Position numbers and translations under genes: made by a program. Below are positions 5,303 through 41,769 of a stretch of 64,000 nt of DNA, piece after piece. Each line of letters opens with the position of its first letter. The stretch's first letter is position 1. The stretch comes from Nostoc sphaeroides (GTDB lineage Bacteria > Cyanobacteriota > Cyanobacteriia > Cyanobacteriales > Nostocaceae): the NCBI RefSeq assembly GCF_003443655.1, contig NZ_CP031941.1, forward strand, positions 3,098,501 to 3,162,500. Reading direction: 5' to 3'. The notes below the pieces were generated by a model. The model did no database searches. It was not told the DNA's origin and saw only the letters and a program-made list of their open reading frames with translations.

Positions 5303-6631
5303 TTAAGCTTCCCCGCGCTGAAGCGACGGGGATTTCTGAAGAGTCCATAATCGAACTTTCTTAGGCTGACTTAAACAACCTCTACTTACTCTACTTAAGT
5401 CAAACTTAAATATCGCAGCTACTTTCTTGATTATGTTAACCGCACCGTGGCAGTCCGCATTTATTTTGATTCCAGTTGAGGTTTGAAATTGACCTCTAGT
5501 AATCCGAAGACCGCTGCTTTTCCACCCTTCGGGTTTTTCACCAAATTTAGGCAGAAAATCATTATCGATGAACGAACTCTTGGAGGTATAACTCTCTTCT
5601 GTTTCAACAAAAACAATACCGTATTGTTCGCATAATTGAGCTATGCGTCTTTTGAGTTTAGCTGTTGGTATTTGAACAAACTTTTGATTGTTCTTTTTAC
5701 CCATATCAGCACCGTCTTTTTGCCCCTCATTCCATCCAAAGACAACAGTACCGATTTTATTGTCTATGCAATGGTTGATTACGATTCTTGCAGCTTTATT
5801 AACAGCATCTCGCATTGTCCGATTACGTTTTTCTGTAATTGCCGCAAGTCGGTTTGACCAAAAACCCTGTGGTTTTCCTTCTTTTATGTTAGCAACTGAT
5901 TTGTTGTACCACTGATTAATGCTTTTGAGATGTAATCCATCAACGATAAAGGATGTTCCAGTATTCGATACACAAGTCAACCAGTTATCGATACCGTGGT
6001 CAATTCCAAGTACTTTAGACTTATCAAGTTCAATAATTGTTGTGTTTGTTTTATAGACAAACTCAGCATAAAAGCATCTGTTTCTTGGTAGTATTCTAAC
6101 CTCCCTGATATCCTTGAAATCTAAATTTGACGGCATTGGTAGATAAAAAGAATCAACACCAAACCAAGTTTTTACCAAACTTCCTAAAGGAAATCTCAGC
6201 ATCCCATTTTTTAGTTTTATGGATCGTCCAGTAAAAGTAGCAACTGCTAAACCACCAGATGTTCTATAATTTGGCAATTTTGGCTTTTGAGCTACTGTAC
6301 CGTTTTTTATGCCTTTCAATAACCCAACAAAAGACTTAAAAGATTCAGCAACGCCTGTTAATATCTGTTGTGCTGTATCTGAATACAAAGCTTGATAATG
6401 TTTGTTCTTTTGAAGAGTTCCTATCTCTTTGTGCAAATCAGCTTTACTTGGTAACTTGCCAGTTTTGAAATAAAGTTGACGACTGTAATAAATTCCACAG
6501 TTTATTAAGCTATTCGCTTCTATGCAAACAAATTCAAGCAAGGCTTTTAAATCCAAGTCTTGGTTAATTAAAACTTGCTGACATCCGTACACCTTTAAAT
6601 TAATCCTTTGTCGTTTGTCTTGACCTATCAA
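5303..6631 (-). CDS. tnpB: TnpB, RNA-guided nuclease of IS605 family
   Basis: 442 residues from a TTG start at 6631. The RuvC-like triad is visible: D211 in LGIDHGIDN, E302 in FGWNEGQKDG and D393 in NADCHGAVNI, with spacings of 91 and 91, close to characterised TnpB. TSKSS follows at 349-353. The CxxC pairs of the usual zinc finger are missing: the stretch between TSKSS and the last Asp has no Cys. TnpB enzymes cut DNA under guidance of an RNA copied from the right end of the element and help the IS persist. A GTG at 6592 (then YGCQQVLIN), 11 bases after AAAGGA, may be the true start. Divergent from tnpA. Confidence 0.85.
   Translation of the reverse strand: MIGQDKRQRINLKVYGCQQVLINQDLDLKALLEFVCIEANSLINCGIYYSRQLYFKTGKLPSKADLHKEIGTLQKNKHYQALYSDTAQQILTGVAESFKSFVGLLKGIKNGTVAQKPKLPNYRTSGGLAVATFTGRSIKLKNGMLRFPLGSLVKTWFGVDSFYLPMPSNLDFKDIREVRILPRNRCFYAEFVYKTNTTIIELDKSKVLGIDHGIDNWLTCVSNTGTSFIVDGLHLKSINQWYNKSVANIKEGKPQGFWSNRLAAITEKRNRTMRDAVNKAARIVINHCIDNKIGTVVFGWNEGQKDGADMGKKNNQKFVQIPTAKLKRRIAQLCEQYGIVFVETEESYTSKSSFIDNDFLPKFGEKPEGWKSSGLRITRGQFQTSTGIKINADCHGAVNIIKKVAAIFKFDLSRVSRGCLSQPKKVRLWTLQKSPSLQRGEA
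5310..5332 (-). ncRNA. right-end hairpin, probable 3' part of the TnpB guide (omega) RNA
   Basis: TCCCCG pairs with CGGGGA and an inner CGCT with AGCG, leaving a 2-base loop and one bulged base. The hairpin lies within the last dozen codons of tnpB (PSLQRGEA) and reaches almost to the stop at 5303, where omega RNAs of characterised TnpB systems end before the guide. RNA function is inferred from position and family; the hairpin itself is seen. The guide would be the bases just beyond about 5290 on the minus strand. Confidence 0.45.
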
Positions 6632-6678
6632 CTATAGCTGAGTTAAGCTATATTTGTCAATAGGTCAGAATAAACGAC

Positions 6679-7080
6679 ATGAAAACTACTTTGGAGTACA
6701 GAAATGGTAATCACTCAAAGGGGAATGCAGTAGTTCATTTAGTATGGATTCCTAAGCGCAGAAAAAAGGTTTTGACCGGAGAGATAGCTAAACGCCTTCG
6801 ACAAATAATTAATGAGCTAGCCCTGGAAAAAGACTGGGATGTTTTAGCGTTAGAAGTCGCTCCTGATCATGTACATTTATTTGTAGAACATCAACCAGAT
6901 ATTGCTATTAACCAGATAGTAAAAGCCTTTAAAGGACGCTCATCTTATATATTGCGTAAAGAGTTTCCACAATTATTGAAATTGCCTAGCCTATGGACTA
7001 ACAGCTATTTTTACTCTACTGCGGGGCAAGTTTCAGCAGATGTAATTAAGAGGTATATTGAAGATCCACATCACGGATAA
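6679..7080 (+). CDS. tnpA: IS200/IS605 Y1 transposase TnpA
   Basis: 133 residues, normal for Y1 transposases. The metal-binding HUH motif is H64-V-H66 in APDHVHLFVE and the catalytic tyrosine is Y126 in VIKRYIEDP. The enzyme cuts and rejoins single-stranded DNA at the element ends after recognising end hairpins. It starts at ATG 6679, 47 bp from the divergent tnpB start. The two gene fronts carry similar words (ATAGGTCA and AAACGACA on both), so the promoter region is roughly symmetrical. A perfect 20-bp palindrome follows the stop codon after 5 bp. No sign of decay. Confidence 0.9.
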   Translation: MKTTLEYRNGNHSKGNAVVHLVWIPKRRKKVLTGEIAKRLRQIINELALEKDWDVLALEVAPDHVHLFVEHQPDIAINQIVKAFKGRSSYILRKEFPQLLKLPSLWTNSYFYSTAGQVSADVIKRYIEDPHHG

Positions 7081-10979: not shown

Positions 10980-12191
10980 CTACTGCTGACGATTGGCTCT
11001 TTCTTGGGGAATGATTTCTGTTACTACCCTACCGCTAGAAGTGCCGCCTTTAACAACAATATTTTCTGTTTGCAGATTACCAACGGCTGTTTCACCTGTA
11101 AAATTTAACGGTGGGTCAACTTGTCGATAAACTACATTTCCCTGAGCTTCAACTAACTTATTGTCTAAATACCAAGTTAATGTATTAGATTTCAAAGACT
11201 GGCGACGCTGACCAATGGCGTTGACGTTACCTGTTAAATAAACCGTTTTTTGCGGTATTTTCATTTCACCTTGATTGGCGGTGACGGTAAGATTTTCGGC
11301 ACGCTGGAACATCCTCACTGGGGAATTTGTAGTAACAGTTTCTGCGTTCATATTCCAAGTCATAGAGTTACTAGTTATTTGCACTGGTGGGTCTAGTAAA
11401 TCTAATTGAGCATTTTTTTGAATAGTGGCAATTTTCGTTTTTAAGTTGACTTCGGCAGAATTTCCTTTGCCGCGATCGCTAATTTTATTATCTTTGTAAC
11501 GGTCTATTTGTAAAGGGCGATCGCCAATCAGTTTTTCTTCTTTAATATTCCAAATTAAATGCTCGGTTCTTACTTGTAACTGGGGATCAATGGAATTTGC
11601 TATTACCCCTCCAGAAAATTCCATGCGCTGTTCGCGGGTTTTAACTCGTGCTTCCTGCGCCACAGCTTGTAGTTGTTTATGACTACCGTTAATCTGGTTG
11701 CGGACAATCAACAAATCTTCTTTGGGTCGCCATTCTAATTCATTACCTTGCAATACAATGCCATTACTGGGATCTGTAGCAAATATTCTACCTTTCAGAA
11801 ATAACTGCTTTCCATCTTGTTCAATATCTGCGACATCAGCCTTGATTTGATAAACTACTTTGCCATCTTGATATAGTTCACCATAAGGACTTTCAGCTTG
11901 ACCAATTTGTTTTTCTTTGGTGTATTTTGCTTGTTTCGCCCTGACTTTCCAAATCGGTCGTCCTACTTCATCTGCTTGTTCTAAGGTGACATCAAAGAAA
12001 GTCAAATTGCTATCTTGGTTAGATGAAGCCGCAGTATCTTGTTGAGAAGCTGTGGGAGATTTACCCCCACAGCTGACTAAACCAAATATCAAGAAAAAAA
12101 TTAAAGGTAAAAGAAGAAAGGGAGGAGTAGAGGAGAAATTTTTAATTTTTCTCTCGCCCTGTCTCCCCCTTTGATGAAATTGATACGCCAT
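10980..12191 (-). CDS. lptC: LptC-like lipopolysaccharide export lipoprotein/bitopic protein
   Basis: 403 residues. The N-terminal hydrophobic segment (about 24-41) ends in the lipobox-like GLVSCGG with C42. Beyond it are repeated OptA/LptC-type beta strands, e.g. VTLEQADEVGRPIWKVRAKQ, AKYTKEKQIGQAESPYGELY and TLTWYLDNKLVEAQGNVVYRQ. LptC takes LPS from the inner-membrane ABC transporter and passes it to LptA. Cyanobacterial LptC proteins are about twice the E. coli length and may include the LptA-like bridge. The start ATG overlaps the stop of the upstream NYN gene by one base (TAATG), so translation is probably coupled. Confidence 0.75.
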   Translation of the reverse strand: MAYQFHQRGRQGERKIKNFSSTPPFLLLPLIFFLIFGLVSCGGKSPTASQQDTAASSNQDSNLTFFDVTLEQADEVGRPIWKVRAKQAKYTKEKQIGQAESPYGELYQDGKVVYQIKADVADIEQDGKQLFLKGRIFATDPSNGIVLQGNELEWRPKEDLLIVRNQINGSHKQLQAVAQEARVKTREQRMEFSGGVIANSIDPQLQVRTEHLIWNIKEEKLIGDRPLQIDRYKDNKISDRGKGNSAEVNLKTKIATIQKNAQLDLLDPPVQITSNSMTWNMNAETVTTNSPVRMFQRAENLTVTANQGEMKIPQKTVYLTGNVNAIGQRRQSLKSNTLTWYLDNKLVEAQGNVVYRQVDPPLNFTGETAVGNLQTENIVVKGGTSSGRVVTEIIPQERANRQQ

Positions 12192-12823
12192 TATTCTTGG
12201 ATTTCTAGATGTCCATCACTAGTTCTGGTGTCTTCCAAAAAACCGATACCAGATAACGGGCGGTATGGATAGCTTTGGCGAGGGGTTTTTTGAATATCTT
12301 CTTTGATGGCTTCTAAATCGATGTAGCGATCGCTTACATTAATTAAGCTGTCGCTGGTCATCGAACGCAAGCTCACCACTTCTACCCGCACGCCGCGATA
12401 GCTGACTGAATTTACCGCATAAGCCAAATCCCCATCACCGCTAACTAAAACTGCGGTATCATAAGAATCTACTAGTGCCATCATATCGACTGCTATTTCT
12501 ACATCTAGGTTAGCTTTTTTAGAGCCATCTGGTAGCTGAACTAGATCCTTAGCAATGACTCGATAGCCATTGCGACGCATCCACAGCAGAAACCCCTGTT
12601 GCTTCTCGTTTGTCCGGTCTACACCAGTGTAGAAAAAAGACCGTAGTAGTCTAGAACCTCCAGTTAATCGGCACAGCAACTTCGTGTAATCGATTTCAAT
12701 CCCTAGTTGCAGTGCAGCGTAAAATAGATTTGAGCCATCAATAAATATGGCCACCCTACCCCGATTCTCCAAAACCTGTTCTGGCGTAAAGATTGAATCG
12801 GTTTCAAAATTATTCAACATCAT
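12191..12823 (-). CDS. NYN-domain (LabA/DUF88-like) protein
   Basis: 210 residues with a PIN-like NYN fold: IFIDGSNLFYA (first Asp), KANLDVEIAVDMMALVD (central acidic pair) and VLVSGDGDLAYAVN (third Asp). These Asp residues would hold the metal of a nuclease site. The family includes LabA, which affects circadian output in Synechococcus, but many paralogues exist and the function here cannot be fixed. Its stop codon overlaps the lptC start (TAATG), so the two are co-translated. The 163-bp gap from metG probably contains the promoter. Confidence 0.8.
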   Translation of the reverse strand: MMLNNFETDSIFTPEQVLENRGRVAIFIDGSNLFYAALQLGIEIDYTKLLCRLTGGSRLLRSFFYTGVDRTNEKQQGFLLWMRRNGYRVIAKDLVQLPDGSKKANLDVEIAVDMMALVDSYDTAVLVSGDGDLAYAVNSVSYRGVRVEVVSLRSMTSDSLINVSDRYIDLEAIKEDIQKTPRQSYPYRPLSGIGFLEDTRTSDGHLEIQE

Positions 12824-12986
12824 TGTGATACCTCAATTATTATCCCTGTTATTTTTGATACAAATTACCAACTTTTAGATGCTAGTCACAGCGGCTTATG
12901 ATAATGTTCCGGGACTAATTTAAGTTCAGCCCCGATAAATTTTTTGAGAAAATAAGAAATTGAACAAAATCAGACTTTGATAAGGA

Positions 12987-14591
12987 TTAATCGTTCTTCG
13001 GGGGTTCTATTCGCTTAAAAATCGGTTGGGCTGTACCCAACTGTTGTTTACTAGATAGTATCCCCCATGTCGCATGGGTGGCAAAAGGAGCGGTAATTGA
13101 ACTTTGTATTTGATCGTTAAAGTTTATTCCAAAGCCCAGTTGCTGATAAATATCGCTACTGATGTTCGGAATAATTGGGGAAAGCAGATAAGCTGCTAGT
13201 CTAACCGATTCTAGAACTGCGTACAGAACTTTTTCCACCGACTCCTGCTGTCCCTGTTTATATAATGACCAAGGAGCTTGTTCATCAATAAACTTATTAC
13301 TGGCTTGCGCCAGTGAAAGGATTGCCTTGCAGGCTTCACTGAAAGCTAGATCCTGGTATGCTTGTTTTACCTGTTCCCCTAGACGTAAACCAATTGCTTT
13401 CAAAGGATTTTCGTCAGAAATTCCTTCATTGCCGATTGAAGGTACATTATTCTGGGCGCAGTATTTCTTCACCATGTTCAAGGTGCGATTGAGCAAATTA
13501 CCTAAATCATTTGCCAAATCTGCATTCAGAACATTAATGAACCTTACTTCATTAAAATCTCCATCCTTGCCAAATTCGATTTCCTTAAGGAAGTAATAAC
13601 GAACGGCATCACTACCATAACGCTGAACTAACGCTATAGGATCAAGGGTATTACCCAGACTTTTGCCCATCTTTTGACCATCTTTAGTCAAAAAGCCATG
13701 CCCAAATACTCGTTCTGGCAAGGGTAAGTTAGCCGACAACAGCATTGCTGGCCAGTAAACTGCATGGAAGCGCAGAATATCCTTACCAATTAGGTGCAGG
13801 TTGATTGGCCACCATGTTTCTAAAGCATTTGCTAAAGTCGGTTCTGCATCTGGTTCTAGTAATGCTGTGACATAAGCTAGCAGCGCATCAAACCACACAT
13901 AAAGGGTTTGCTTGGGATCAACTGGTACGGGAAAACCCCAATCTAGATTTACCCGCGAAATGGAGAAGTCTTGCAGTCCTTGATTGACAAAGCTGAGGAC
14001 TTCGTTACGCCGACTTTCTGGTTGAATAAAATCGGGTTTAAATTGATAAAATTCTGTCAGCTTAGTTTGATATTTAGATAAGCGGAAAAAATAGTTTTGC
14101 TCGTCTCGCCACTCGACTTCTTTGTTAGTATGAATCGCGCAACGGTGTCCTTCTAGCAGATCCCGTTCTTCTTTGAATTCTTCGCAGGATACGCAGTACC
14201 AGCCTTTTTGTTGTCCCTGGTAGATATCACCAGATTTCCAGACTCGATCGAAGAATTCTTTGACGATCGCTTCATGACGAGGTGCGGTAGTCCGACTAAA
14301 GCGATCGTATTGAATATCCAGTATTTGCCACAAATTAACGAAGCTAGGGACAATTTCATCGCAAAACTCTTGTGGTGCTTTGCCTAAAGTTTCTGCCGAT
14401 CGCTGAATTTTTTGCCCATGTTCATCTGTACCTGTAATTAGTAATACCTGATGCCCCAATAGCCTATGAAATCGCGCTACTACATCTGCTGCGATCGTCG
14501 TATAAGCACTGCCTATATGGGGCACATCGTTTACATAATATAGCGGTGTTGTTAGTGCAAATGTTTTTTTTGTTTTATTCACTAGATTCAT
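12987..14591 (-). CDS. metG: methionyl-tRNA synthetase
   Basis: 534 residues, class-I synthetase. LYYVNDVPHIGSAYTTIAAD carries the HIGH variant PHIG, and DGQKMGKSLGNTLDP carries the KMSKS variant KMGKS. TGTDEHGQKIQ and WYCVSCEEF (the zinc-knuckle insertion with a single Cys pair) agree with the MetG of cyanobacteria. It charges tRNA-Met for initiation and elongation. The C-terminal dimerisation/EMAP domain of longer forms is absent, as is normal for this length. The ATG at 14591 gives the typical start. Confidence 0.95.
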   Translation of the reverse strand: MNLVNKTKKTFALTTPLYYVNDVPHIGSAYTTIAADVVARFHRLLGHQVLLITGTDEHGQKIQRSAETLGKAPQEFCDEIVPSFVNLWQILDIQYDRFSRTTAPRHEAIVKEFFDRVWKSGDIYQGQQKGWYCVSCEEFKEERDLLEGHRCAIHTNKEVEWRDEQNYFFRLSKYQTKLTEFYQFKPDFIQPESRRNEVLSFVNQGLQDFSISRVNLDWGFPVPVDPKQTLYVWFDALLAYVTALLEPDAEPTLANALETWWPINLHLIGKDILRFHAVYWPAMLLSANLPLPERVFGHGFLTKDGQKMGKSLGNTLDPIALVQRYGSDAVRYYFLKEIEFGKDGDFNEVRFINVLNADLANDLGNLLNRTLNMVKKYCAQNNVPSIGNEGISDENPLKAIGLRLGEQVKQAYQDLAFSEACKAILSLAQASNKFIDEQAPWSLYKQGQQESVEKVLYAVLESVRLAAYLLSPIIPNISSDIYQQLGFGINFNDQIQSSITAPFATHATWGILSSKQQLGTAQPIFKRIEPPKND

Positions 14592-14959
14592 ACAAAATAA
14601 AAATTAACTTATAAAACGTTTTACTTTTATCGGAAAAACCAAGTAATTATACAATATTATTTCTATTTTTTCCAATAATCCCTTCATAGTAGCAAATTTT
14701 TCAGATCAAAAATTGTTTTGTAATATGCATGAATTCAACTCATTTTTGCCTACAACAGCGAATCATTATCATAATTTTTTTGAATACTTTATATTAGAAA
14801 TTATTGTGATCAAAAATACATAATCCAGAATCCGGAAAATCTATCTGGTTTTGTGGATTAGATATTTCTATCTTAAGACGGTCATGGCAGTAGTAAAGAA
14901 ATGTAAAAATTAATTTAAGATAAACTGCCATATTTACCGGAAAAATATATTGATTAGGT
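14592..14959. other. AT-rich divergent intergenic region
   Basis: 368 bp between the divergent metG and acyltransferase genes. Very AT-rich, with TAATCCAGAATCCGGA and a distant GGATTA as a weak inverted repeat near 14820-14860. It should hold both promoters, but none can be assigned with confidence. No repeat family seen elsewhere in the window occurs here. Confidence 0.4.
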
Positions 14960-15685
14960 ATGAGTCGAAATAGCCCCCTAGAGATTTCTCGCGCTTTGGT
15001 GGCGGCGCTTTCAACCCAAATGTTTTGTTATTACCAGGATCGCATTCCCCAAGATGCCAGCGTTTTGGTAGTCAGCAATCACCGCAGCTTTATGGATGCA
15101 CTAATTTTAATGGCGGCGTTATCGAGTCCGATTCGCTTTGCTTGCCATCACTACATGGGACAAGTGCCAGTAATGCGGGAGATTGTCACCGGACAATTGG
15201 GGTGTTTTCCTTTGGAGGAAACTCAAAACCGTCTGCAAAGCTTTTTTTCGCAATCACAGGTGTTATTGCAGTCCAAGCAGATGGTGGGAGTCTTTCCAGA
15301 AGGAACTCAACCAATGGTGAAATTTACTGTGCCAAACCAAATGGGTGAATTTCAGCGCGGATTTGCCCATTTGGCATTGCGGGCTGATGTGCAGGATTTA
15401 GCAATTTTGCCGATCGCGATCGCCTCCTTAGAAGAAGTAAATACGAATGGCTTCCCCTTAAGGCTTTTGAGTCTATTTGACCCTTCAGAACCTTTATTTA
15501 ATCAAGCTGGTTGGCATCCTCTGGTATTTTATCGTCGGGTTGCAGTGTTAATCGGTCGCCCTTATTGGATTACGCCCCAACATCATCAAAAATATCATGG
15601 TAAACAAGCCAGAACTGTTGTGGCTGAACTGACAGAACACTGTCATAGTGAAATTAGCAATTTACTGCGTCAAGGTTGTTATTAG
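14960..15685 (+). CDS. lysophospholipid acyltransferase (PlsC-like LPLAT family)
   Basis: 241 residues. N40-H41-R-S-F-M-D46 is the HX4D catalytic motif and VFPEGTQP the glycerol-phosphate-binding motif. It should move an acyl group from acyl-ACP/CoA to a lysophospholipid or alcohol. A 256-bp spacer with a repeat separates it from an alpha/beta hydrolase on the same strand that resembles the hydrolase half of plant phytyl ester synthases, so the two may work on the same substrate. A second PlsC homologue at 47850 is the better candidate for the housekeeping enzyme. Confidence 0.75.
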   Translation: MSRNSPLEISRALVAALSTQMFCYYQDRIPQDASVLVVSNHRSFMDALILMAALSSPIRFACHHYMGQVPVMREIVTGQLGCFPLEETQNRLQSFFSQSQVLLQSKQMVGVFPEGTQPMVKFTVPNQMGEFQRGFAHLALRADVQDLAILPIAIASLEEVNTNGFPLRLLSLFDPSEPLFNQAGWHPLVFYRRVAVLIGRPYWITPQHHQKYHGKQARTVVAELTEHCHSEISNLLRQGCY

Positions 15686-15810
15686 AGGCATTCGATTTTG
15701 GATTGTCTTTACGACTTTTAGTAGCTTGTTTCTAAACCTTTTTTATTTTTGCTCAAAACTACCGAAGCTCTTAACAGCAACAATTAGCAATCCAAAAGTT
15801 TTATACCCAC

Positions 15811-15900
15811 GACTTACGCAAAATTATCAAAAAACGAACCACAAAGGACGCAAAGGACACAAAGTCATAAGAGTTTGAGAGAGTTTTCGCGTAAGTCCTA
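15811..15900. repeat. palindromic repeat, TAGGACTTACGC family (copy 1)
   Basis: The ends GACTTACGCAAAA and TTTTCGCGTAAGTCCTA face each other across about 60 bp. Read in reverse complement it matches 57140-57232 in many positions (CTCTCAAACTCT, GTGGTTCGTT). Next to it, 15903-15945 is a heptamer-like run of AATGACC/ACTAATG that includes the hydrolase start codon. Confidence 0.55.
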
Positions 15901-15941
15901 ATACCATTGACTAATGACCATTGACTAATGACCAATGACCA

Positions 15942-16769
15942 ATGACTATAAGAGAAGTTGAGCTAAACCCTTGTTTCCTGACTCCTAAACGAGTAAAGCC
16001 AGAGTATCCCTTGTTGGTATATTTGCCAGGAATGGATGGAACTGGTCAACTATTGCGATCGCAAACGGTTGGATTAGAAACAGGCTTTGATGTCCGTTGT
16101 TTGGCGATCCCACGCAAAGACCTTAACACTTGGGATGTGCTAGCGAAAAGTGTATTGGACTTAATTTACGCCGAATTAGAAAAAAGCCCTCAGAGGCCAG
16201 TTTACCTGTGTGGTGAGTCCTTTGGTGGTTGCTTGGCAATGAAAGTAGCGATCCAAACACCGCATTTATTTAAGCGAATTATCTTAATTAACCCAGCTTC
16301 GTCCTTTCGTCTTCGCCCTTGGTTACATTGGGCATCTCAACTTACTTACTTAGTGCCATCAGAGTTGTATGATGTTGGCGCACTGGGATTGTTGCCGTTT
16401 CTAGCATCTTTGCCACGCATTTCTCGGAGCGATCGCCATGAACTGCTAAAAACTATGCGTTCTGTTCCGTCAGAAACCGTTCTTTGGCGGTTGTCTTTAC
16501 TGCGAGAATTTGATATTGATAACAAGCAGTTAGGTCGCTTAACTCAACCAGTTTTGCTGATTGCTGGTGGTAGCGATCGCCTTTTACCTTCTGTAACTGA
16601 AGTGAAGCGGATAGGGAATATCTTACCAAATACCAAAATTGTGGTATTGCCCCATTGTGGACACGCTTGCTTACTAGAGGAAGATATTAATCTCTATGAA
16701 ATTCTTAAGGATAACGACTTTTTAGAAAGTAATACTGATATAGGTACGGGGTTAGAGGTGAGAGGATAG
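15942..16769 (+). CDS. alpha/beta hydrolase, phytyl-ester-synthase-like hydrolase half
   Basis: 275 residues. LLVYLPGMDGTG is the oxyanion strand, CGESFGGCLAM has the nucleophile S93, and the Asp and His of the triad are in LIAGGSDRLLP and LPHCGHACLLEE. LPGxDGTG, CLAIPRKD and GESFGGCLA are the words found in the hydrolase half of plant PES proteins, where it is fused to an acyltransferase. Here the acyltransferase is a separate gene 256 bp upstream. The ATG lies in a short tandem repeat and has no Shine-Dalgarno, so the true start might be a few codons later. A broken duplicate of a segment of this gene is at 19113-19230. Confidence 0.7.
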   Translation: MTIREVELNPCFLTPKRVKPEYPLLVYLPGMDGTGQLLRSQTVGLETGFDVRCLAIPRKDLNTWDVLAKSVLDLIYAELEKSPQRPVYLCGESFGGCLAMKVAIQTPHLFKRIILINPASSFRLRPWLHWASQLTYLVPSELYDVGALGLLPFLASLPRISRSDRHELLKTMRSVPSETVLWRLSLLREFDIDNKQLGRLTQPVLLIAGGSDRLLPSVTEVKRIGNILPNTKIVVLPHCGHACLLEEDINLYEILKDNDFLESNTDIGTGLEVRG

Positions 16770-16867
16770 GGTGAAGGGCGATCTAAGAGGTTTTCCGACT
16801 CTATATTCATAATGACCTGTTGCCCTTCCAATTAGATGTTTAATTCGGTAAAGTGCTGGCCTTAACA

Positions 16868-18760
16868 TTAAGCTCCAGGTTGTAACACTACTAGCTGAGT
16901 AGGGTTTTCAATTGTTAGTTCACAAATGTCGTTTTCTAGTTCTATTGGCTCTACTCCAATAATCTTGACTTGTTTTCTATTAACAATTTCTGGTGAGCTA
17001 CCATCCATAATTTTGTTCAGCGTTTGTGAAGAAACAAAGACTTGACAGATTTTATGATTTTCTCGTTCCAATCGTAATCGAATCATTCCATTGCCCTGAT
17101 TGGTGAAACCAGCCACCCGTCCTAGAATCCCTTGAGATGTTGCATTACAAAAAAATTGTACGGGATTTCTACTAAAATTAGCGCAAGACAAAACTTGATC
17201 TGCTCTTAATGCAATCGTTCTAAATTCTTTGTAGTCTGGCTCTTTTCCTGTATCGTAGTTTGCCTGCTCCTTAATTTTTTTAGGCGCATTTTCTAAAATG
17301 TTTTGAATCTGCTTTTGAACAGTAGGACTCAATTTTGGAGATAAGTAAACTCCTGTGCCTGGAATTTCTCTACTAATTTGAATTACTCTAAATTGTGGAT
17401 CATCCTTGATTGTACTGTATACAACTGCTCCTATATCTGCTTGTTTATTAGCTACTAGCTCTCGAATTTTACTACTTCTATGTCCTGCCGTTACAGTCGT
17501 AGATTTTCCATATAAATCATAGGTAGGCATATAGAAGCTCGAAGCTGAATTGTAATCTCCAAGCGCGATAGTTGTTGTAGACTTAATATCTTCAATTGAC
17601 TTAATTAGACTATCAGACCTAACAAATAAGGCTGATTGAAAAGTAAGTGGATATTTAGGATACATTCGAGCTAACCATTTATAGCTATTATCTTTAGCTC
17701 GCATTCCATTCATGGGTGAGTTGGCAAATACGATATCCCATTTGTTTTTAGAAATATTATTTTGAGCTTCTTTATATGTAATTTCAGAGTTACCTTCAAC
17801 TACTACATCTCTGGCTTGATAACCGAGTTGTTTTTTTAAGTATGTTTTAAATTCTGAATACTGCTTAGGTGAAGTGATAATGCCTATAACAAGAGGTTTT
17901 TTAGTAATATCTTTATAACAAATACCATTTTCTCTTGTTTCAGTAGTAGTTTCGCATGGTCTTAAATTAAAATAGTACCAAACAGCAAATATTCCTACTC
18001 CTAGTACTACAAAGGAAAAAAGGATTTTAGAAAAATGAATATATTTGTTATGAGGTGGTTTTTTGGGGGGTTCAACAGGTTTTGGAGGTTCTAGAGTGGT
18101 GACAACAGGTTTTGGTTTTGGAGGTTCTACTAGAGTTTTTACTGTAGTGTGGTCAGGCGGCTGAACATTTATAAGTAGTTCGATTTTTTCTAGTGAGATT
18201 CCTGTGAGTTCGCTAATAATTTTTTTAATGCCAACTTCGTTGAATTTTGCAGCAATATTTTCCCTAGTTCTAATACTGCCTAAAATCTGTTTTATTCTGG
18301 ATACATGACAAATATGCACTGATTTTCCAGGTTGAAAGCTATTAATAACTGCATCTTCTATTTCAAATTGTGTTTGATCGGGGGCAACAACAAAATAATT
18401 AACCCAGAAAGGAATATCCTGAAATATACAAGACCGAAGTTTATCTTTAATAACTAGACTATACCGTTCAACTTGTCTATATGGATTGCCGCCAACAGCT
18501 TCAATTTTTGTATTATCAGAAAACCATGCTTCGTTGGCGCTTCCTGTCCACTTCCCTCTATATCCTTTTGCCTCCAAACATACAAATACTCCTGGCTCCA
18601 TAACCACCAAAGCATCAATTTCGTGAAAGTTTGAACTCAGAGCCTCTCTAAAAGAAAAACCCATAAGGGCATAACCGGCAAGTTGTGCTTGCTCTAGAGT
18701 TGTTTTTAATTCTCTCTCAAAACCTTGAAGTTCAACTCCCTCTGGTAAAAGTACTTTCAT
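16868..18760 (-). CDS. NERD-nuclease domain fused through a TM helix to a PhnD-like binding domain
   Basis: 630 residues. 1-130: NERD (nuclease-related) domain with D49 in HEIDALVV, E63-A-K65 in CLEAKGYRGKW and Q96 in NPYRQVERY, the PD-(D/E)xK pattern. 200-238: Pro/Lys-rich linker with repeated EPPKP. 245-265: one hydrophobic helix. About 288-520: type-2 periplasmic-binding-protein domain of the PhnD phosphate/phosphonate-like kind (PLVIGIITSPKQYSEFKTYL, WDIVFANSP, ADIGAVVYS). 530-630: a beta-rich tail with paired Cys. Without a signal peptide the predicted topology is cytoplasmic NERD, periplasmic sensor. The gene stands alone; function unknown. Possibly ligand-gated nuclease or defence protein (speculative). 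Confidence 0.7.
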   Translation of the reverse strand: MKVLLPEGVELQGFERELKTTLEQAQLAGYALMGFSFREALSSNFHEIDALVVMEPGVFVCLEAKGYRGKWTGSANEAWFSDNTKIEAVGGNPYRQVERYSLVIKDKLRSCIFQDIPFWVNYFVVAPDQTQFEIEDAVINSFQPGKSVHICHVSRIKQILGSIRTRENIAAKFNEVGIKKIISELTGISLEKIELLINVQPPDHTTVKTLVEPPKPKPVVTTLEPPKPVEPPKKPPHNKYIHFSKILFSFVVLGVGIFAVWYYFNLRPCETTTETRENGICYKDITKKPLVIGIITSPKQYSEFKTYLKKQLGYQARDVVVEGNSEITYKEAQNNISKNKWDIVFANSPMNGMRAKDNSYKWLARMYPKYPLTFQSALFVRSDSLIKSIEDIKSTTTIALGDYNSASSFYMPTYDLYGKSTTVTAGHRSSKIRELVANKQADIGAVVYSTIKDDPQFRVIQISREIPGTGVYLSPKLSPTVQKQIQNILENAPKKIKEQANYDTGKEPDYKEFRTIALRADQVLSCANFSRNPVQFFCNATSQGILGRVAGFTNQGNGMIRLRLERENHKICQVFVSSQTLNKIMDGSSPEIVNRKQVKIIGVEPIELENDICELTIENPTQLVVLQPGA

Positions 18761-18864
18761 AACCTTCTAGTTTAAATAGCCTATACTATATTATTTATTA
18801 CATGCTAACAATGTAAAATCACGGCTTTAATCAGTTAATATACTTAAATAGTGTTTTTAGAATA

Positions 18865-19001
18865 AGGGACTTCCAAGTAAAAAAATATTCCATTGCTATT
18901 GTTCACCGTTGACCGTTGACGGTTCACGAGTTTTCAGTCAACAGTCAACAGTCAACAGTCAACGACTTTAATGTGGAATAATTTATTTTTTGGAGTTCCC
19001 T
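18865..19001. repeat. MITE-like element with short tandem repeats inside
   Basis: The ends AGGGACTTCCAAGTAAAAAA and, in reverse complement on the right, AGGGAACTCCAAAAAATAAA continue into TATTCCATT and TTATTCCACATT. The core is GTTGACC/GTCAACA heptamer units that can pair with each other. No ORF. Confidence 0.5.
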
Positions 19002-19112
19002 AAACTTATTTTGCTTTAATTCAGGGAATTTTTTAAGTGATGTAAAATTTGAATTTAAGCGAGTCAAAATTGGGAAACAGCTATCGCCTCAGCTTCTCCC
19101 ATAACTGAAGTG

Positions 19113-19230
19113 CGATCGCACGGAAAGACCTCAACACTTGGGATGTGCTAACTAAGAGTGTATTGGACTTGAGCCACGCAATATTTTAACTTTTGCCTTG
19201 TTAGGTGAGAAGATAGGTAAAGGACATCTA
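19113..19230 (+). pseudogene. relic of a duplicated alpha/beta hydrolase segment
   Basis: Bases 19115-19178 repeat, at roughly 85% identity, the stretch 16112-16175 of the hydrolase gene (AAAGACC, AACACTTGGGATGTGCTA and AGTGTATTGGACTT shared). Bases 19200-19228 resemble the 3' end of that gene at about 16754-16785. The part between is deleted, so this is a remnant of a second copy. No usable frame remains. The rest of the 18761-19300 spacer holds only the MITE. Confidence 0.6.
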
Positions 19231-19300
19231 ATATCTCGTTACCTTCAAATAATATTTGTGTCCTTAAAAAGCTTAACCACATATTTTTGGAGACTCTCAA

Positions 19301-19537
19301 ATGGTTGCTCTCAAGGAGTTCCTCAGCCTAGAATTAGATAAATTGAATGAAGAACAACTCAAACAAGTTAGTGATTTTATTGCCTTCCTAAAATTTCGCA
19401 GCAAAAATATTAGCTGGCAAATAGATAAAAATCAAATGGCTGCTCTTTACAGTGAATTTGCCGAGGAAGATCGTCAACTGGCTGAAGCAGGATTAGATGA
19501 ATATGCAGAACTTCTTACACAAGAAGATTTGAAATGA
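19301..19537 (+). CDS. antitoxin-like small protein of a MazF module
   Basis: 78 residues. LDKLNEEQLKQVSDFIAFLKFRS is the short helical start seen in many cyanobacterial antitoxin-like proteins (DUF2281-like). The acidic C-terminal half (EFAEEDRQLAEAGLDEYAELL) would bind and block a basic toxin. It overlaps the MazF-like gene by 4 bp (ATGA), the standard arrangement of a type II toxin-antitoxin operon. Weak family identity; the context carries the call. GGAGACT 7-13 nt before the ATG serves as Shine-Dalgarno. Confidence 0.6.
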   Translation: MVALKEFLSLELDKLNEEQLKQVSDFIAFLKFRSKNISWQIDKNQMAALYSEFAEEDRQLAEAGLDEYAELLTQEDLK

Positions 19538-19830
19538 GGGTTCAACGAGGTGAAGTATGGCTAGCCAATTTAGACCCTACCAAGGGTTCTGAACAAGCAG
19601 GAACAAGACCAGTTATTATCTTTCAAGATGATATCGTCGCCGAATTTTCCACCACTGTCATCACCATTCCTTTAACAACAAATTTACGTCGTGTGTCTTT
19701 GCCAACCTGTTTATTAATTCCAAGTGGTGAAGGTGGATTGATGCCGTGCTATAATAGTTTAATTTGTTTTGTTAAAAAACTCAAAACAGACTATGACCAA
19801 AACAACAGTCAAACTGCAAATTCCTTTTGA
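19534..19830 (+). pseudogene. MazF/PemK-like toxin with lost C-terminus
   Basis: The first 70 residues are a good MazF: MRVQRGEVWLANLDPTKGSE, GTRPVIIFQDD, VITIPLTTNLRR, CLLIPSGEGGL. MazF then normally continues with a D-S-V-A-L-C-H-Q-I helix and ends near residue 110. Here, after GGLM at about 19743, the sequence is unrelated (PCYNSLICFVKK) and runs into the next module's start. The RNA-cleaving surface is therefore incomplete and the toxin is probably inactive. TATAAT at 19750-19755, just after the break, may now serve the next module. Confidence 0.65.
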
Positions 19831-20041
19831 ATCACTCCTAGATGCGATTGCCAACCTTCCTTTAGAAGAAAAACATCAACTGCGGCAATTATTAAATGAG
19901 GAAATTAATCAAGGCGAAGGAAATTTGCTTCAAGAAGACTCTTATGATTGGGGTTCCCAAGGGCAGCCAAAAGGCAAGCCAGTAGAATATATCCCTGGAG
20001 TTGGGCTAAAAGTTGTTGGTGGCAAGAATGCGCCAACCTGA
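19793..20041 (+). CDS. antitoxin-like protein of a second MazF module
   Basis: 82 residues from the ATG at 19793 (MTKTTVKLQIPFESLLDAIA). The segment ANLPLEEKHQLRQLLNEEI is a helical pattern common in cyanobacterial antitoxins. The C-terminal part is Gly/Lys-rich and probably unstructured until it meets the toxin. It overlaps the broken first MazF by 38 bp and the following MazF-like gene by 14 bp, so the cassette seems to have been joined onto the first module. Family not recognised beyond this. Confidence 0.5.
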   Translation: MTKTTVKLQIPFESLLDAIANLPLEEKHQLRQLLNEEINQGEGNLLQEDSYDWGSQGQPKGKPVEYIPGVGLKVVGGKNAPT

Positions 20042-20405
20042 TTTGCTTGAGTGTGGCGACGTAATTATAGTAAGTTTGCCTACTAGTACTCCTAGAGGAC
20101 GAGAACAACAAGGAACTCGACCTGCTGTAGTAGTCGGTATACCTTGGGGAGAAGTCCGCTATCCAATGCTAATGATTGCACCTTTAACTACCCAGAGTGG
20201 TTCTTGGGTGTTCAATAATCCCAGCTTATACCCGCGTTTGTTAGCTGGTGCGGGTGGTTTGCCTCTGCCTTCCATTGTCTTACTAGATCAAGCGCGGGGA
20301 TTAGATATAAATCGAGTTTTGGCGTATTTAGGAACACTCACCCCTGAACAATATGTTCCTATTCTTGATGGATTAACACAGTTATTCAGACAACAAAATA
20401 GTTAA
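20028..20405 (+). CDS. MazF/PemK-family toxin
   Basis: 125 residues from ATG 20028. LECGDVIIVSLPTSTPRGRE is the first strand and loop, QGTRPAVVVGIP the PemK/MazF core, and MLMIAPLTTQSG and PSIVLLDQARGLDINRVLAYLGTLTP the remaining strands and helix. MazF toxins cut mRNA at short sites. Unlike the neighbour at 19534, this copy has the full C-terminus (LDxxRxLDxxRL-like helix), so it may be active. It overlaps its antitoxin gene by 14 bp, consistent with coupled translation. Upstream TTG/GTG codons add at most five residues. Confidence 0.75.
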   Translation: MRQPDLLECGDVIIVSLPTSTPRGREQQGTRPAVVVGIPWGEVRYPMLMIAPLTTQSGSWVFNNPSLYPRLLAGAGGLPLPSIVLLDQARGLDINRVLAYLGTLTPEQYVPILDGLTQLFRQQNS

Positions 20406-20500
20406 TTTTAAACTAATATTTACCTTTCTAGAGGGATGTAGAGCCGCTAATATTTCGCTACAACTTTAAAGAGAGAGGCTTTACAGGATGGTGTCAAGCA

Positions 20501-21668
20501 ATGACAGACAAACCCCAAGAAATACAGGTGAATAAATCAGTTAATTCACCCAGAGAAACTTCAGAAGTAAAAATACAGGCTCAATCATCAGTAGAGAATG
20601 AACCATCTATAGTAGAGTATTTTATTAAAACTGTTGCTGAGACTGGCAAAGCAGTTTTAGACACAGCAGTAGTTGTGGGAGAAGCAACAGCGAAAGAAAC
20701 ACACAAGTTTATTGAGCAAACAACTCAAACTAGCGGTCAAGTTGTGAATCGCCTGAGTGAAAATTGGCTAATTAGAAAACTATCTGGAGTATTAAATTTA
20801 AATTGGCTAATTGGTACTACTGACGCTGTTGATTTGGAAAAAGCAGAAGTTGCGGTAAAGAAGCTCAAGCAACAGTATCCAAATGAATCAGCTAGCCAAA
20901 TTGCTCACCGAATCATGGTAGAAAAAGCAACTCAAGCAGGCACAGTTGGATTAGCAACAAGTGTTTTACCAGGAATAGCAGTTGCATTGTTGGCAATTGA
21001 TTTAACAGCCACAACCAAAATACAGTCAGAAATGCTTTATCAAATTGCATCTGTCTACGGGCTAGATTTAAAAGATCCTGCGCGTAAAGGTGAAATTTTG
21101 GCAATTTTTGGTCTAGGCTTGGGTGGAGGCCGTCTATTGAAAGCTGCGGGATTAGGCTTGCTGCGAAATATACCCTTGGCGGGTGCGGTAATAGGAGCTA
21201 GTTCCAATGCGACGATGATTTATTCATTAGGGTATAGTGCTTGTCGATTTTACGAAGCCAAGCTAGATGAATCAACTTCGCTCTCATCGCCACAGACACT
21301 AGCAACATTAAAAGCAGAGAGTGAAAAATATCTAGAAACTGCGAATCGCTCAACAAGCCGTCATGGATCAAATTTTAGTTCACATGATCCTTGCTAGTCA
21401 TCCAGAAAAGACTTGGAAAGAAATTTTGCCAGAATTACAAACTCTAAACCTCACTCCTAACTCCTTGGATGCAATTGCCCAAAATATCAAATCGCCTAAG
21501 CCTTTAGATATACTGCTCAATCAGCTAAATCGTGATTTTGCCATACCCTTGCTAGCTCAGTGTGAAAAAATTGCCCAGCTTGACAATAAGACTACACCAG
21601 TTGAGCAAGAAATAATTAGTGCGATCGCTAGCAAATTTGATATTGACAAAAACGCAATTGGGGCATAA
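20501..21668 (+). pseudogene. EcsC-family protein gene, broken by a +1 insertion in a HIP1 site
   Basis: The first frame codes 298 residues and ends at 21397. A second frame from about 21349 to 21668 continues the same protein (QQAVMDQILVHMIL onward). Joining them gives about 388 residues. The join is at GCGAATCGC (21341-21349): removing one A restores HIP1 GCGATCGC and the reading EKYLETAIAQQAVMDQIL. The protein has a polar N-terminus, then hydrophobic glycine-rich helices (VLPGIAVALLAIDLTATTKI, IFGLGLGGGRLLKAAGLGLL) as in the EcsC family, of unclear membrane-associated function. Either a real recent mutation or a base-call error. Confidence 0.6.
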
Positions 21669-30395: not shown

Positions 30396-33300
30396 TTAGA
30401 TTGGTAAGTAGATCACAAATTCAGTACCTTCACCTGGTCTAGAATCTACCTCGATCGCTCCTCCATGTTTTTCTACAACGATTTGACGAGCGATCGCTAA
30501 CCCCAATCCTGTCCCTTTTCCCACACCTTTTGTAGTAAACAAGTAGTCAAAAATCTTTTGTTTGACTTCTTCATTCATCCCTTTGCCATTATCAGCAATA
30601 GCAATTTTTACGCCTTCATTTACCAAAGAGGTTTTAATTGTAATTCGGTTGGCATTGGACTTAATTTCCTCAAAACTCCTTCCTACATTTGATTCATCCA
30701 GCGCATCAATAGCATTTGCCAAAATATTCATAAATACCTGATTCAATTGCCCAGAGAAGCATTCAATTTTGGGCAAGTTTGCATAATAAGTTATCACTTC
30801 AATTGCTGGACGTTGTTCGTTTTCTTTGAGGCGATGTTTGAGAATTAAAATTGTACTGTCGATACCTTCGTGGATATTAAACGGTACTTTATAATCTTTA
30901 TCAGCACGAGAAAAAGTTCTTAAACTAGTGCTGATATTTTTGAGGCGATCGCACGCCATCACCATTGAATCAATAATTTTTGGTAAGTCTTCTAAGGTAT
31001 AATCTAAATCAATCTCTTCGGCATGTACTTTGATTTCATCATTGGGATTTGAGAGATTTGTTTGATATAGTTTTAAGTGTTTAACAATATCAGCAATCGT
31101 GGGTTTAGCTTGTTTGAGGCTAGCAGCAATAAAGCCTAAAGGATTATTCATTTCATGGGCTACCCCAGCAACTAAATTACCCAATGCTGACATTTTTTCA
31201 CTCTGAACAATTTTTAATTGCGCTTGTTGTAAATCTCCTAACGCTGTTCCGAGTGCTTGAGATTTTTCTGTTACCGCTTCTTCAGCTTGTTTGCGATCGC
31301 TAATATTAATAGTTGTCCCAACTACGCGATAAACTTTGCCCGTCTCATCTTTTAATGGACTGAGTGTGGTTAACCACCAAATTTTCTGCTCATTAAATGT
31401 TAGACATTCTTCATGGGTGAGGGCTATTCCGCTTTGAAAACAATCCAGATACTTTTGCTCGACTGCTGCACCTTCACCTGGAGCCATTACTTCTTGCGGA
31501 GTTTTACCCAGCACTTGGGAAGCAGGTATAGCAAGCGCTAATTCGCACGATTTACTCCATCCTGTGTACTCAAATCTACCATTATCCCGAATATCGACCA
31601 CAAAAATGAGACAGCCAACACCTTCGTAAATACTATTTAAGAACTTTCCGCGCTCCTGGAGATGATTATATAATTGGGCATTTTCCAAAGAAATGGCAGC
31701 TTGAGTGCAGAGAAAATTTATAATAGAAAGGCGATCGCTCGTAAATACCCCTTGCGTCAGTCGATTTTCTAAATAAAGAATCCCCACTAAACGCCCTTGA
31801 TTAATAATCGGAGTACATAATACACTCTGGGGTTGTGAGGAGTGCATATATTCCCCAATTAACCCAATAATATGTGTTGTGCAATTGTCTATAACAACTG
31901 TTTGCTTGGTATTTTTGACGTAATTGATAATATTTACGGGAATATCTTGACAATTGTCTAGTGATTGTGGTTCAAGAATGGTTTGGATATGAATCTGGGA
32001 ATTTAAGGTAATTGCCCTAACTTGCCAAGTATCTTCATAGGGAAGAATTAGTGCAGCTTTTTTCGCGCCGGAGTTTTCGAGGATAATGCGGGTGAGGCTG
32101 GCAACAAGTTGATCTAATTCTAGAGAACTGGAGATAGCTTGAGCCGCTTTGAGAACTGAAGTAAAATCTAGTGCATCAGAAATACTGGTGCTGCCAGTGC
32201 TAGAAGTGCGAGTGGAAGAAGAAGTGCCACGAAAGCTAATAGTTTCGTCGTGTTTGAAGTTGATTCGTTGCTGTTGCAGAATGGATTGGAGTAGTTGGGG
32301 ATAGCGTTTTTCTAAATCCTCCACTTTGGCTTTTGCGCCCCAACGAGCGTAGCAGTAGTATGCTTCTTGCATATATGCTTGGGCGACTTTTTCTTTATCC
32401 CAGCCGAGATAGAATTTGGCTGCTAATTCGTTGCTAAGTGCTTCTTCTTGGATGTAGCCGTTGGCTTTGGCAAGAGTTATGGCGCGATCGTAATATTCCA
32501 TCGCTTTGAGCTTGTCTCCCATTACCCGCGCTATTTCTGCCTCAACTAAGTCATACTTGTGCTGAAAATTAACAGGAGCATAGCCAGCCCAATAATGCAT
32601 GAGTTTTTGGTTGCTAACTACCTGATTTAGCCAAAATTCTTGCTGATCCTGTTGGCGATCGCAGCTAGAATACTTTGCAAGTAAGCACAAAGAGTAGTAA
32701 AAGTTATGTCCCACAACTAAGAGTAGACCAAAAGCTCCATCCATATATTCGGTGGCTTTTTCTGCATTGGTTGCAGCCTGTTCATACTGATCAAAGGTAT
32801 AAAGGATAGCTATTTTGGCAAGATAGATGGCAAATAGTGACTGATGATTGTGAGTGTTGTGAAGATGCGACAGCATTTCTGTTTCATCAAAATCAACACC
32901 AGTCAGGTAATATTGGTGAGAGGATCGACCGAGTAGATTTAAGGTGACTTGCCTCCAAACCTGGGCATAATCAACACAATGTTTTTGTTTAAGTTTTAAA
33001 AGTAGATTAATATATTTGGTTTGCCTTTCTTCAACAGCATCTAGAGTTTCTCCAATTAAGAATAAATGCGTACATTCAGCCATCATTGAATAGCTAGCGT
33101 GTTCAATATCTCCAACTTCTAGCCCACACTGGATACTTTCTCGTATAGCTGTGAGTGTATTTCGACCATGCTCTTTGTAAGCACAGATAAAAACACCAAA
33201 AAGCATATAAATTTTTGAACTTATTTCTTTACTTTGGTATTGTTCTAGTAGCTTTAAAGCTATCTGACTTGAGTAATAAGCGGTATCGACATCTCCGATT

Positions 33301-36215: not shown

Positions 36216-36219
36216 ACTG

Positions 36220-36246
36220 CTAAATCTTTAATACTTACAGATTTAG
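36220..36246 (-). promoter_or_regulatory. conserved 8-11-8 inverted repeat in front of hybrid kinase C
   Basis: On the coding strand CTAAATCT, 11 bases, AGATTTAG, then 4 bases (CAGT) and the ATG. TGGGAACA stands before it. The same design with the same spacing precedes copies A and B. Confidence 0.6.
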
Positions 36247-36290
36247 TGTTCCCAGAATCTATGAAGTTGTTTATAAACAAGAGGAAAATT

Positions 36291-39200
36291 TTACACCGGA
36301 ATTTCAATAATAAATTCTGTACCCTCACCTAGAACAGAATTACAACTCAATTTGCCACCGTGCGTCTCTTCAACGATTTGACGAGCGATCGCTAATCCTA
36401 ATCCCGTACCTTTACCTACACCTTTTGTAGTAAATAAGTGGTCAAAAATATTTTCTTTCACTGATTCACCTATCCCCTTGCCATTATCTGCGATCGCAAT
36501 TTTCACGCCTTCATTTTCTAAGGAGGTTTTAATTGTAATTCGGTTGGGATTGGACTTAATTTCTTTAAAACTGCGTCCCGTATTCGATTCATCTAGCGCA
36601 TCAATGGCATTTGCCAGAATATTCATAAATACCTGATTTAATTGCCCAGGAAAACATTCAATCTGGGGAAAATTACCGTAATCAGTGACTACTTCAATTT
36701 CTGGACGTTCTTCATTAGCTTTCAGACGATGTTTGAGAATTAAAATCGTGCTATCTATACCTTCGTGGATATTAAACGGTACTTTGTAATCTTTATCAGC
36801 ACGAGAGAAAGTACGAAGACTGGTGCTGATGTTGCGGAGGCGATCGCACGCCATTGTCATAGAATCAATTATTTTGGGTAAGTCTGATAAACTATAATCC
36901 AAGTCAATATCTTCAGCATGGTCTTTGATTTTATCGCTGGGATTGGGTAGACTTTCTTGATATAGCTTTAAGTGTTCAACAATATCTGCAATAGTGGGTT
37001 TAGCTTGTTGGAGACTGGCAGAAATAAAGCCCAAAGGATTATTCATTTCATGAGCTACCCCTGCAACAAGATTACCCAGTGCCGACATTTTCTCACTTTG
37101 GACAACTTGTAATTGTGCTTGTTGTAAATCTTGTAATGCAATTCCTGCTTGTTGATAGAGTCGAGCATTCACTAGAGATATTGCTGCTTGAGATGAAAGA
37201 AGGTTAATTACACTGAGGCGATCGCTAGTAAAAACCCCTTGAGTTAAGCTATTTTCTAGGTAGAGAATCCCTACCATAACCCCTTGATTAATAATTGGGG
37301 CACACAACACACTCTGAGGTTGATATTCCAACATATATTTGCCAATTATCCCAGGAATATCTGTTTTACAATTGTCTATAACAATTGTTTGTTGAGTATT
37401 TTTGACATAATTGATAATTTTTACGGGAATATCTTGACAATTGTCTAGTGATTGTGAATCTAGGATAGTTTGTATTTCCTCATGCTCGATAAAGGTAATT
37501 GCTCTAACTTGCCAATTGTCCTCCTCTTGGGGAAGTACCAGTACGCATTTTTTAGCGCCGGAGTTTTCTAGGATAATGCGGGTGAGGCTAACAATTAGTT
37601 GATCTAATTCTAAAGAACCGGAGATAGCTTGAGCTGCTTTGAGGACAGAGGTAAAATCCAGAACTTGGGAAATATTGGTAGTACCAGTGCTATTCGTGCA
37701 AGTAAATGAGGAAGCGTTGCGAGAGCTAATAGTTTCTAAGGGATTGAGCTTGATTTGTTCCTCTTGCAGAATGGATTTGAGAAGTTGGGGATAGCGTTTT
37801 TCTAAGTCCAAGGTTTTGGCTTTTGCGCCCCAACGGCTATAGCAATAGTAGGCTTCATATATATAATCTCCGGCGGCTTTTTCTTTGCCCCATTTGAGGT
37901 AAAATTTAGCTGCAAGTTCATTAGCGAGGGCTTCTTCATAGCCGTAACCTTGATGTTTAGCTTGAGCAATGGCTTGTTCATAAAAATCGATTGCCTCTGC
38001 TTTTTGTCCCTTTAGCCGTGCTTTTTCTGCTTGTATTAGCAGACACTTGTGGAGAATATTTTCTGGACAGGCTATTGCCCAATTGTTTAAGCGTTCCTCT
38101 AAGGGAATCAGCGCTTGCCAATGGAACTGACGCTCTTGCTCGTCGCTAGCAATTTCAGCTAGAGATAGATGCATTAATGCTACATAAAATACGCTAGAAG
38201 GGACTTTAGCATGACTAGAAATCGTGTTTTCAATTATGCTCAGTTGGGGAATTAAATCTGAGTATGCGGCTTTGTGGTCAAATAAATAAGCATGACGAAT
38301 TTTGACAGAATATAACCAAGCCAGATGATAAGGAGTATTGCCATATTTTTGTAAAAACTCAGCTTCAGTGAAGCTATCGTCATCAAAGCTAAAGGGGGTT
38401 TTTGTTAAACCAAGAAGATTGCGAATTGGTTGAATAACTCCGACTATTAAAGCATCTAAATTCTCTAAACTTTTGATGTGACGGAGAAAATCTGCATGGC
38501 CTTGAGCGATCGCATATAGTTCATCCAGATTTTTACCATAAGTGAGGCGATCTGAACCACTTTGCATCATCATAAAGCCAACAGTCAACCAATTCCCTGC
38601 TTCCATGCCATACTTGTAAGCGTTGTCATAGTATGTATCTGCTTCTCTAATTGGATGACTCCAGCTATGCACATCAGCAGCAAAGATAAAATTAGTCATT
38701 CCCCGAACATCTGCATTATCAAACTGTTCGCAAAGCTGCACCGCCATTTGTCCAAACTGATAACCTGTTCCCAAGTCTTTGAGGATGGCATTGGCAATTA
38801 AGGCATAGCCGGCATAGCTAAAGGGAGACATATCGCTGTTACCATACTGCAAAGATAAAGTAGTCATCTTGGCAAGTACAAGTAATCCTAAAGTAGGTTG
38901 ACCATCAAGCCATGCAGCATAGAAGAGAATTTGTAAAATTCGCAACATTTCTGCAATACCGGCATCTGACATTTTGGGAAGATTGAGAATGGATTCAATA
39001 GTCTGTTGCTCTAAAAATCTGTTAACTATGGCAATTTCTTCGTCCAGACTTTTTTGAATCAACTCTTGTTCTTTTGGTAGTTCCCAGTCGAGTAGTTGTA
39101 AACTCTGGCGTTGCATAGCGATCGCTTCTGCATTGCGTCCCTGAAGCTGATATTGAGTCATCTGCACACGATAAATCACCGCTTTGTCTAGGGGTGTTTG

Positions 39201-41738: not shown

Positions 41739-41742
41739 ATTG

Positions 41743-41769
41743 CTAAATCTTTAATACTTCCAGATTTAG
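41743..41769 (-). promoter_or_regulatory. conserved 8-11-8 inverted repeat in front of hybrid kinase B
   Basis: Coding strand: CTAAATCT, 11 bases, AGATTTAG, then CAAT and the ATG. TGGGAATA precedes it. Same spacing as before copies A and C. Confidence 0.6.

Follow-up and report, generated by a model that had tools for sequence, protein, structure and literature searches.

A gene of Nostoc sphaeroides is predicted to join a nuclease-type domain, across the membrane, to a ligand-binding domain, raising the question of what such a protein would sense and what it would act upon. In the window, the whole stretch of 64,000 nucleotides analysed here, the gene occupies positions 16868–18760 and encodes 630 aa, ordered as NERD, Pro linker, transmembrane (TM) helix, PhnD-like domain and beta tail, as indicated by Pfam, orthologues and dN/dS values below 1. 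An earlier note on this DNA had proposed this layout, which was borne out by Pfam and structure prediction; its coordinates were exact, but it missed the strand: the coding strand is the minus one, and the plus-strand frame over these positions is packed with stops. The domain pair that the note proposed to search for was found with both profiles above their cut-offs: NERD (PF08378) at aa 14–124 (E = 5.9e-11, 43.3 bits versus 22.1) and Phosphonate-bd (PF12974) at aa 298–490 (E = 5.9e-24, 85 bits versus 27). The only other Pfam match, to CdiA_C, was sub-threshold. All features of the protein given below lie on the minus strand.

The Pro-rich EPPKP linker (aa 199–243; 18032–18166) is fast evolving and predicted to be disordered, with pLDDT values below 50 over aa 199–256 in the AlphaFold2 model. 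It is followed by a single TM helix (aa 244–268; 17957–18031), within the sole hydrophobic segment of the protein (aa 242–268). The N side of this helix is the more positive, with 4 K/R versus 2 on the other flank; such a positive-inside arrangement is evident in the window protein, but was seen in only 18 of 30 relatives and is ambiguous family-wide. We infer that the N-terminal half is cytoplasmic and that the PhnD domain and tail are periplasmic. Two invariant cysteines, C526 (17183–17185) and C538 (17147–17149), possibly form a disulphide and would suit an outside, oxidising location.

The dN/dS ratio against the closest orthologue was 0.37 overall and 0.20 in the PhnD part, indicating that the window gene is under selection. 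Values were below 1 in the NERD, PhnD and tail regions; the linker (about 0.5–2.6) and TM helix alone had ratios that approached or exceeded 1. Searches with the PhnD plus tail module recovered the complete NERD-TM-PhnD-tail fusion from seven other cyanobacterial genomes, at 44–94% identity, and from one plasmid, so chance is excluded as the origin of an arrangement that the earlier note would have given up had no homologue shared it. The carriers include five Nostoc genomes (in one of them the copy is truncated where the contig stops), Elainella saxicola (54% identity) and a Gloeomargaritaceae MAG (44%). Together, the dN/dS values and the orthologues ruled out a pseudogene or a chance fusion. 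When only the NERD half served as query against 293 genomes from the order, the sole matches were the window protein and one unrelated coiled-coil NERD protein, and the fusion was thus reached via the PhnD module. Phage records gave no match.

The NERD domain (aa 1–198; 18167–18760) is probably of the PD-(D/E)XK type according to Pfam, its model and weak fold matches. The residues picked out in the earlier note, D49 (predicted metal-site Asp; 18614–18616), E63 and K65 of the predicted catalytic E-x-K (E63-A-K65; 18566–18574) and Q96 of an NPYxQ motif (18473–18475), were correctly chosen, being invariant in 18 of 18 NERD domains taken from three contexts. This part was poor in the first full-length model because the alignment held few NERD sequences; modelled alone, with operon-partner NERDs in the alignment, it reached a pLDDT of 92 (AlphaFold2). 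Both folds of the fusion are predicted, and the nearest structures to NERD in Foldseek were the PD-(D/E)XK enzymes NucS/EndoMS, SduA (the Shedu nuclease) and McrC, all of them weak matches (E = 4e-3 and probability 0.96 for the best). We consider NERD a nuclease-type domain that would cleave DNA.

The PhnD-like part (aa 285–525; 17186–17908) is a type-2 binding-protein domain by Pfam, Foldseek and PDB profile search. It was modelled with a pLDDT of about 95 and matched E. coli PhnD (3p7i) at E = 2.4e-15 in Foldseek, with PtxB, ArrX and AioX as further neighbours of the outer part. The residues that contact the oxyanion in PhnD and PtxB (PMC5700983, PMC10284923) were carried over by reading a profile alignment to E. 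coli PhnD. Most are retained, as is the fold, in comparison with PhnD 3p7i and PtxB 5o2j: Y329 (17774–17776) corresponds to Y47 of PhnD and is nearly invariant in relatives, S405-A406-S407 (17540–17548) to the STS oxyanion loop, and H427 (17480–17482) to H157/H158, a position that varies in some relatives. S405 and S407 align with S127 and S129, whereas A406 replaces T128. The acids E177 and D205, which cap 2-aminoethylphosphonate in PhnD, align with S449 and T469. A phosphate-type group is thus the likely ligand as judged from these residues, and 2-aminoethylphosphonate is not likely, since the gripping acids are lost. Unlike PhnD and PtxB, the domain is tethered, lacks a transporter and carries an extra beta-rich tail (aa 541–626; 16883–17140; pLDDT about 85) that belongs to no Pfam family. 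The tail also ends kinases that adjoin PhnD-module genes and lack PhnD themselves. One of these (L103:11016-13082, which follows a PhnD-module gene at a distance of 7 bp) reads DUF4145, Zn ribbon, Ser/Thr kinase and TM before the tail, indicating that the tail forms a separate domain.

PstS-type proteins occur in the same layout. The window genome encodes a 711-aa CHAT-TM-PstS-like protein (G000:C1:245389-247524; L201:2390-4525), with E-values of 4.8e-13 for CHAT and 5.1e-29 for PBP_like_2. It resembles the window protein in placing a conflict-type domain, a TM helix and a phosphate-type binding protein in this order, and differs in its domains, which are the protease-like CHAT and PBP_like_2 where the window protein has NERD and Phosphonate-bd. 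A DUF1822 gene precedes it, and about 15 of 53 Nostoc genomes have close homologues. In another genome, the genomic slot of the window gene holds an 82-aa HTH gene, a tubulin-like gene (Tubulin_2, 1e-99) and a Zn-ribbon-TM-PstS-like gene (L155:858-5704); a similar tubulin-like gene precedes a Zn-ribbon-TM-PhnD gene in Anabaenopsis (L090). PstS-type domains in the sensor place, in the slot pair and in CHAT-TM-PstS, suggest the same ligand class. The phosphate or phosphonate ligand proposed in the earlier note thus gains support from these proteins and from the conserved oxyanion contacts, as a prediction.

The earlier note missed that PhnD plus tail forms a modular family with many partners. 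Cyanobacterial loci with the module number at least 60, and in almost all of them a single membrane helix or anchor precedes it; where relatives carry an N-terminal extension, nearly all show one hydrophobic segment directly ahead of the PhnD domain. Partners of the module were NERD, Ser/Thr kinase, HEPN (HEPN_Swt1), DUF4145 and Zn ribbon domains, and further forms carry a C-terminal staphylococcal nuclease (SNase), a short adaptor domain or no partner. A quick tree built from 62 modules shows at least 14 changes of partner label overall, and at least two for NERD. From these sequences, PhnD plus tail is a mobile, reusable module, predicted to sense the outside, that swaps partners. The short N-terminal adaptor (LDCTDVYGL..ELEALFSHIR.EW..; L095:9542-10000) has no Pfam match and recurs in several proteins of the TM-PhnD type and in some with kinase-TM-PhnD. 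The layout of PhnD with a kinase was not found in a published survey of cyanobacterial kinases.

To characterize the surroundings of the module, we compared near genes with those in a 5–10 kb zone at 61 loci with flanks. A same-strand NERD gene lay no more than 320 bp away at 14 of the 61 loci versus 0 in the far zone, and corresponding counts were 9 versus 1 for UvrD helicases, 10 versus 0 for acid phosphatases and 13 versus 0 for a sensor protein often ending in NERD, with the far zone somewhat under-sampled as not every contig extends to 10 kb. An unnamed sensor family (L074:2983-4866 and similar) has the order TM, periplasmic domain ('FRVQTVDFN'), TM, coiled coil and NERD; HATPase replaces NERD in L103, and within our set the family is always near PhnD-module genes. 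Secreted EEP or SNase nucleases adjoin PhnD-module genes in L095, L111, L099 and L102, and plasmid pC052_A has an S1/P1 nuclease gene near the operon, on the other strand. The window locus itself has no adjoining HTH regulator, phosphatase or periplasmic nuclease.

Plasmid pANSO36A, from Nostoc cf. commune SO-36, encodes an 815-aa NERD-TM-PhnD-tail-SNase protein (E = 3.5e-11 for NERD, 5.6e-20 for PhnD and 2.9e-17 for SNase), followed after 43 bp by an e(P4)-type acid phosphatase gene. Its NERD part is 79.5% identical to that of the window protein and its PhnD-SNase part shares up to 88% identity with another family member, indicating that it is a recombinant whose halves match different genes. 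The genes that precede the fusion on the same strand encode an HTH protein, a type IIG restriction-methylation protein (PADLOC, 9e-132) and a PLD/SNF2 helicase (PADLOC, 4e-69).

Three orthologues (L060, L062 and L065) have an 83-aa HTH gene 92 bp upstream. Among its 30 best matches in Nostoc, the gene that follows was NERD-PhnD in three cases, type IIG restriction in six, HerA in three, a UvrD or RT-associated helicase in three, a sacsin-type ATPase in one and tubulin-like plus Zn-ribbon-TM-PstS in one, besides others; HMMs were run on one gene per class, and assignment of the remainder was by eye. The HTH gene also heads non-defence genes, such as that in L179. Comparison of Nostoc genomes placed the window gene in a variable slot (16770–20500, no strand assigned) that is bounded by an abhydrolase gene, which 52 of 53 genomes possess, and by an EcsC-like gene, and that holds NERD-PhnD and toxin-antitoxin genes. 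Of 20 sampled genomes, 15 had only toxin-antitoxin-type genes or nothing recognised in the slot, one had transposase genes and one the tubulin/PstS pair. In Nostoc WHI, the slot contains the fusion, with genes for a methylase and for what may be a restriction endonuclease next to it. The toxin-antitoxin genes of the window (19301–20405) overlap, are MazE/MazF-like and lie upstream of NERD-PhnD; at 98 aa, the first MazF looks cut short in comparison with a 115-aa copy in L059. The earlier note had suggested looking among the neighbours for defence islands or a Pho regulon, and they point to DNA processing and defence rather than to Pho, which the note had missed.

The reading that we favour over its rivals, though at about even odds, is that the NERD-PhnD protein unites sensor and effector of a conflict (defence) system in a single membrane-spanning component, a phosphate-type ligand outside governing a DNA nuclease on the inner side of the membrane. 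The PhnD cleft would bind a phosphate-type group, be it Pi, a phosphonate or a nucleotide/DNA breakdown product; its closure would be passed through the TM helix, and NERD, released or clustered at the inner face, would cut phage or conjugative DNA arriving through the envelope. In relatives, outer SNase, EEP or S1/P1 nucleases and acid phosphatase may degrade envelope DNA, and the nucleotide or phosphate coming from it might be what is sensed, or the DNA might merely be degraded there. This proposal keeps the idea, already in the earlier note, that a binding domain in the periplasm is coupled to a nuclease-type domain in the cytoplasm, which still holds as a prediction. Defence is favoured because of the conflict-type effectors, the mobility, the variable site and the restriction neighbours. 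On the other hand, phosphate-rich water makes free phosphate a poor alarm signal.

The main rival of the defence reading is phosphorus scavenging from DNA, in which the module would sense phosphate or phosphonate status and steer the use of DNA as P source, with nucleases and acid phosphatase acting outside and NERD/UvrD handling imported DNA inside. The PhnD/PstS-type ligand domains agree with this, and nutrition fits the secreted SNase, EEP and S1/P1 nucleases and the e(P4)-type acid phosphatase that adjoin the module equally well. However, HEPN, kinases and the CHAT protease of the PstS-type layout are unfit partners for nutrition, and the distribution is patchy, plasmid-borne and in hot spots beside restriction genes. 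Neither was a Pho box found upstream: none scored above shuffles in the window, and there was no clear signal across the family with the same low-power scanner, a weak test because it flags only two of the PstS-type genes of the window genome. Scavenging appears rather unlikely. Ordinary stress or nutrient signalling, with NERD as a non-cutting binder of DNA or protein in a ligand-driven one-component regulator, appears improbable: its active-site D, E-x-K and Q are invariant in the 18 NERD domains, and the association with helicases and other nucleases is repeated. Many family members do carry kinases, and PF12974 domains are the ligand-binding input of the TtrS/ThsS sensor kinases (PMC5408782), tethered sensors already known that the earlier note missed. 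The window protein shares the PhnD-type domain with TtrS/ThsS, where it is part of the sensor, and with ArrX/AioX; the output is there a histidine kinase or its partner, in contrast to NERD, Ser/Thr kinase or HEPN here, and the sensor of the window family is C-terminal of the TM helix, unlike in TtrS/ThsS. Finally, PF12974 proteins usually serve transporters and many members of the family are no more than a PhnD domain on a membrane anchor, as would befit a substrate-binding protein that is tethered and serves an ABC importer of phosphate or phosphonate, with NERD incidental. Yet the fusion is conserved over large distances, and no transporter gene, permease or ATPase, adjoins within window positions 10980–21668 (Pfam), as the earlier note had stated, or is among the recurrent family neighbours; we discarded this reading on the absence of transporter genes, as highly improbable.

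Defence systems acting while DNA crosses the envelope have been recognised only recently, and the signals that they sense are mostly unknown. A membrane nuclease cutting entering DNA has a precedent in SNIPE, which is membrane-bound and cuts phage DNA during injection (PMC13190303). Like the window protein, as predicted, SNIPE is a single-pass membrane protein that holds a nuclease at the cytoplasmic face, in a family that is partly variable. Its nuclease is, however, GIY-YIG plus DUF4041, neither of which matches the NERD-containing window protein in Pfam, and it has a small N-terminal periplasmic part and no described ligand-binding domain, whereas here a large PhnD sensor is C-terminal. Fusions of NERD and UvrD helicase (PADLOC C3a187, RTasNERD-Hel) have NERD in common with the window protein, and such genes adjoin the PhnD modules of relatives, but they are soluble and have no sensor. 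PADLOC-DB 2.0.0 has no model for the protein, with only PglW and PDC-M16A matching over the NERD part, at 2–3e-4. The earlier note knew of no described system with this layout; likewise, in the part of the literature that we covered, we found no description of a NERD-PhnD fusion, or of PhnD- or PstS-type sensors on nuclease, HEPN or CHAT effectors.

A well-understood ligand-binding fold has thus been wired repeatedly to nuclease- or immunity-type domains in one phylum. More broadly, and doubtfully, these proteins might form a cyanobacterial immune class with exchangeable outside sensors of PhnD or PstS type, in which nucleases and phosphatases of the envelope would break incoming DNA down to a phosphate-type signal that, by way of one membrane helix, activates an inner NERD, HEPN, CHAT or kinase domain. 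If so, the trigger of immunity would be what foreign DNA is chemically degraded to outside the cell. The NERD-TM-PhnD-tail-SNase protein of pANSO36A makes the link from outside DNA breakdown to an inside nuclease directly testable.

Elsewhere in the window, three adjacent giant genes on one strand (30396–47715; 1804–1939 aa) resemble, by eye, Ser/Thr kinase-AAA-GAF-histidine kinase proteins, and a 777-aa gene beside them is histidine-kinase-like, also by eye. Positions 5303–7080 hold a transposon-like pair, again judged by eye, of a TnpB-like gene (442 aa, minus strand) and an IS200-type transposase-like gene (133 aa, plus strand).
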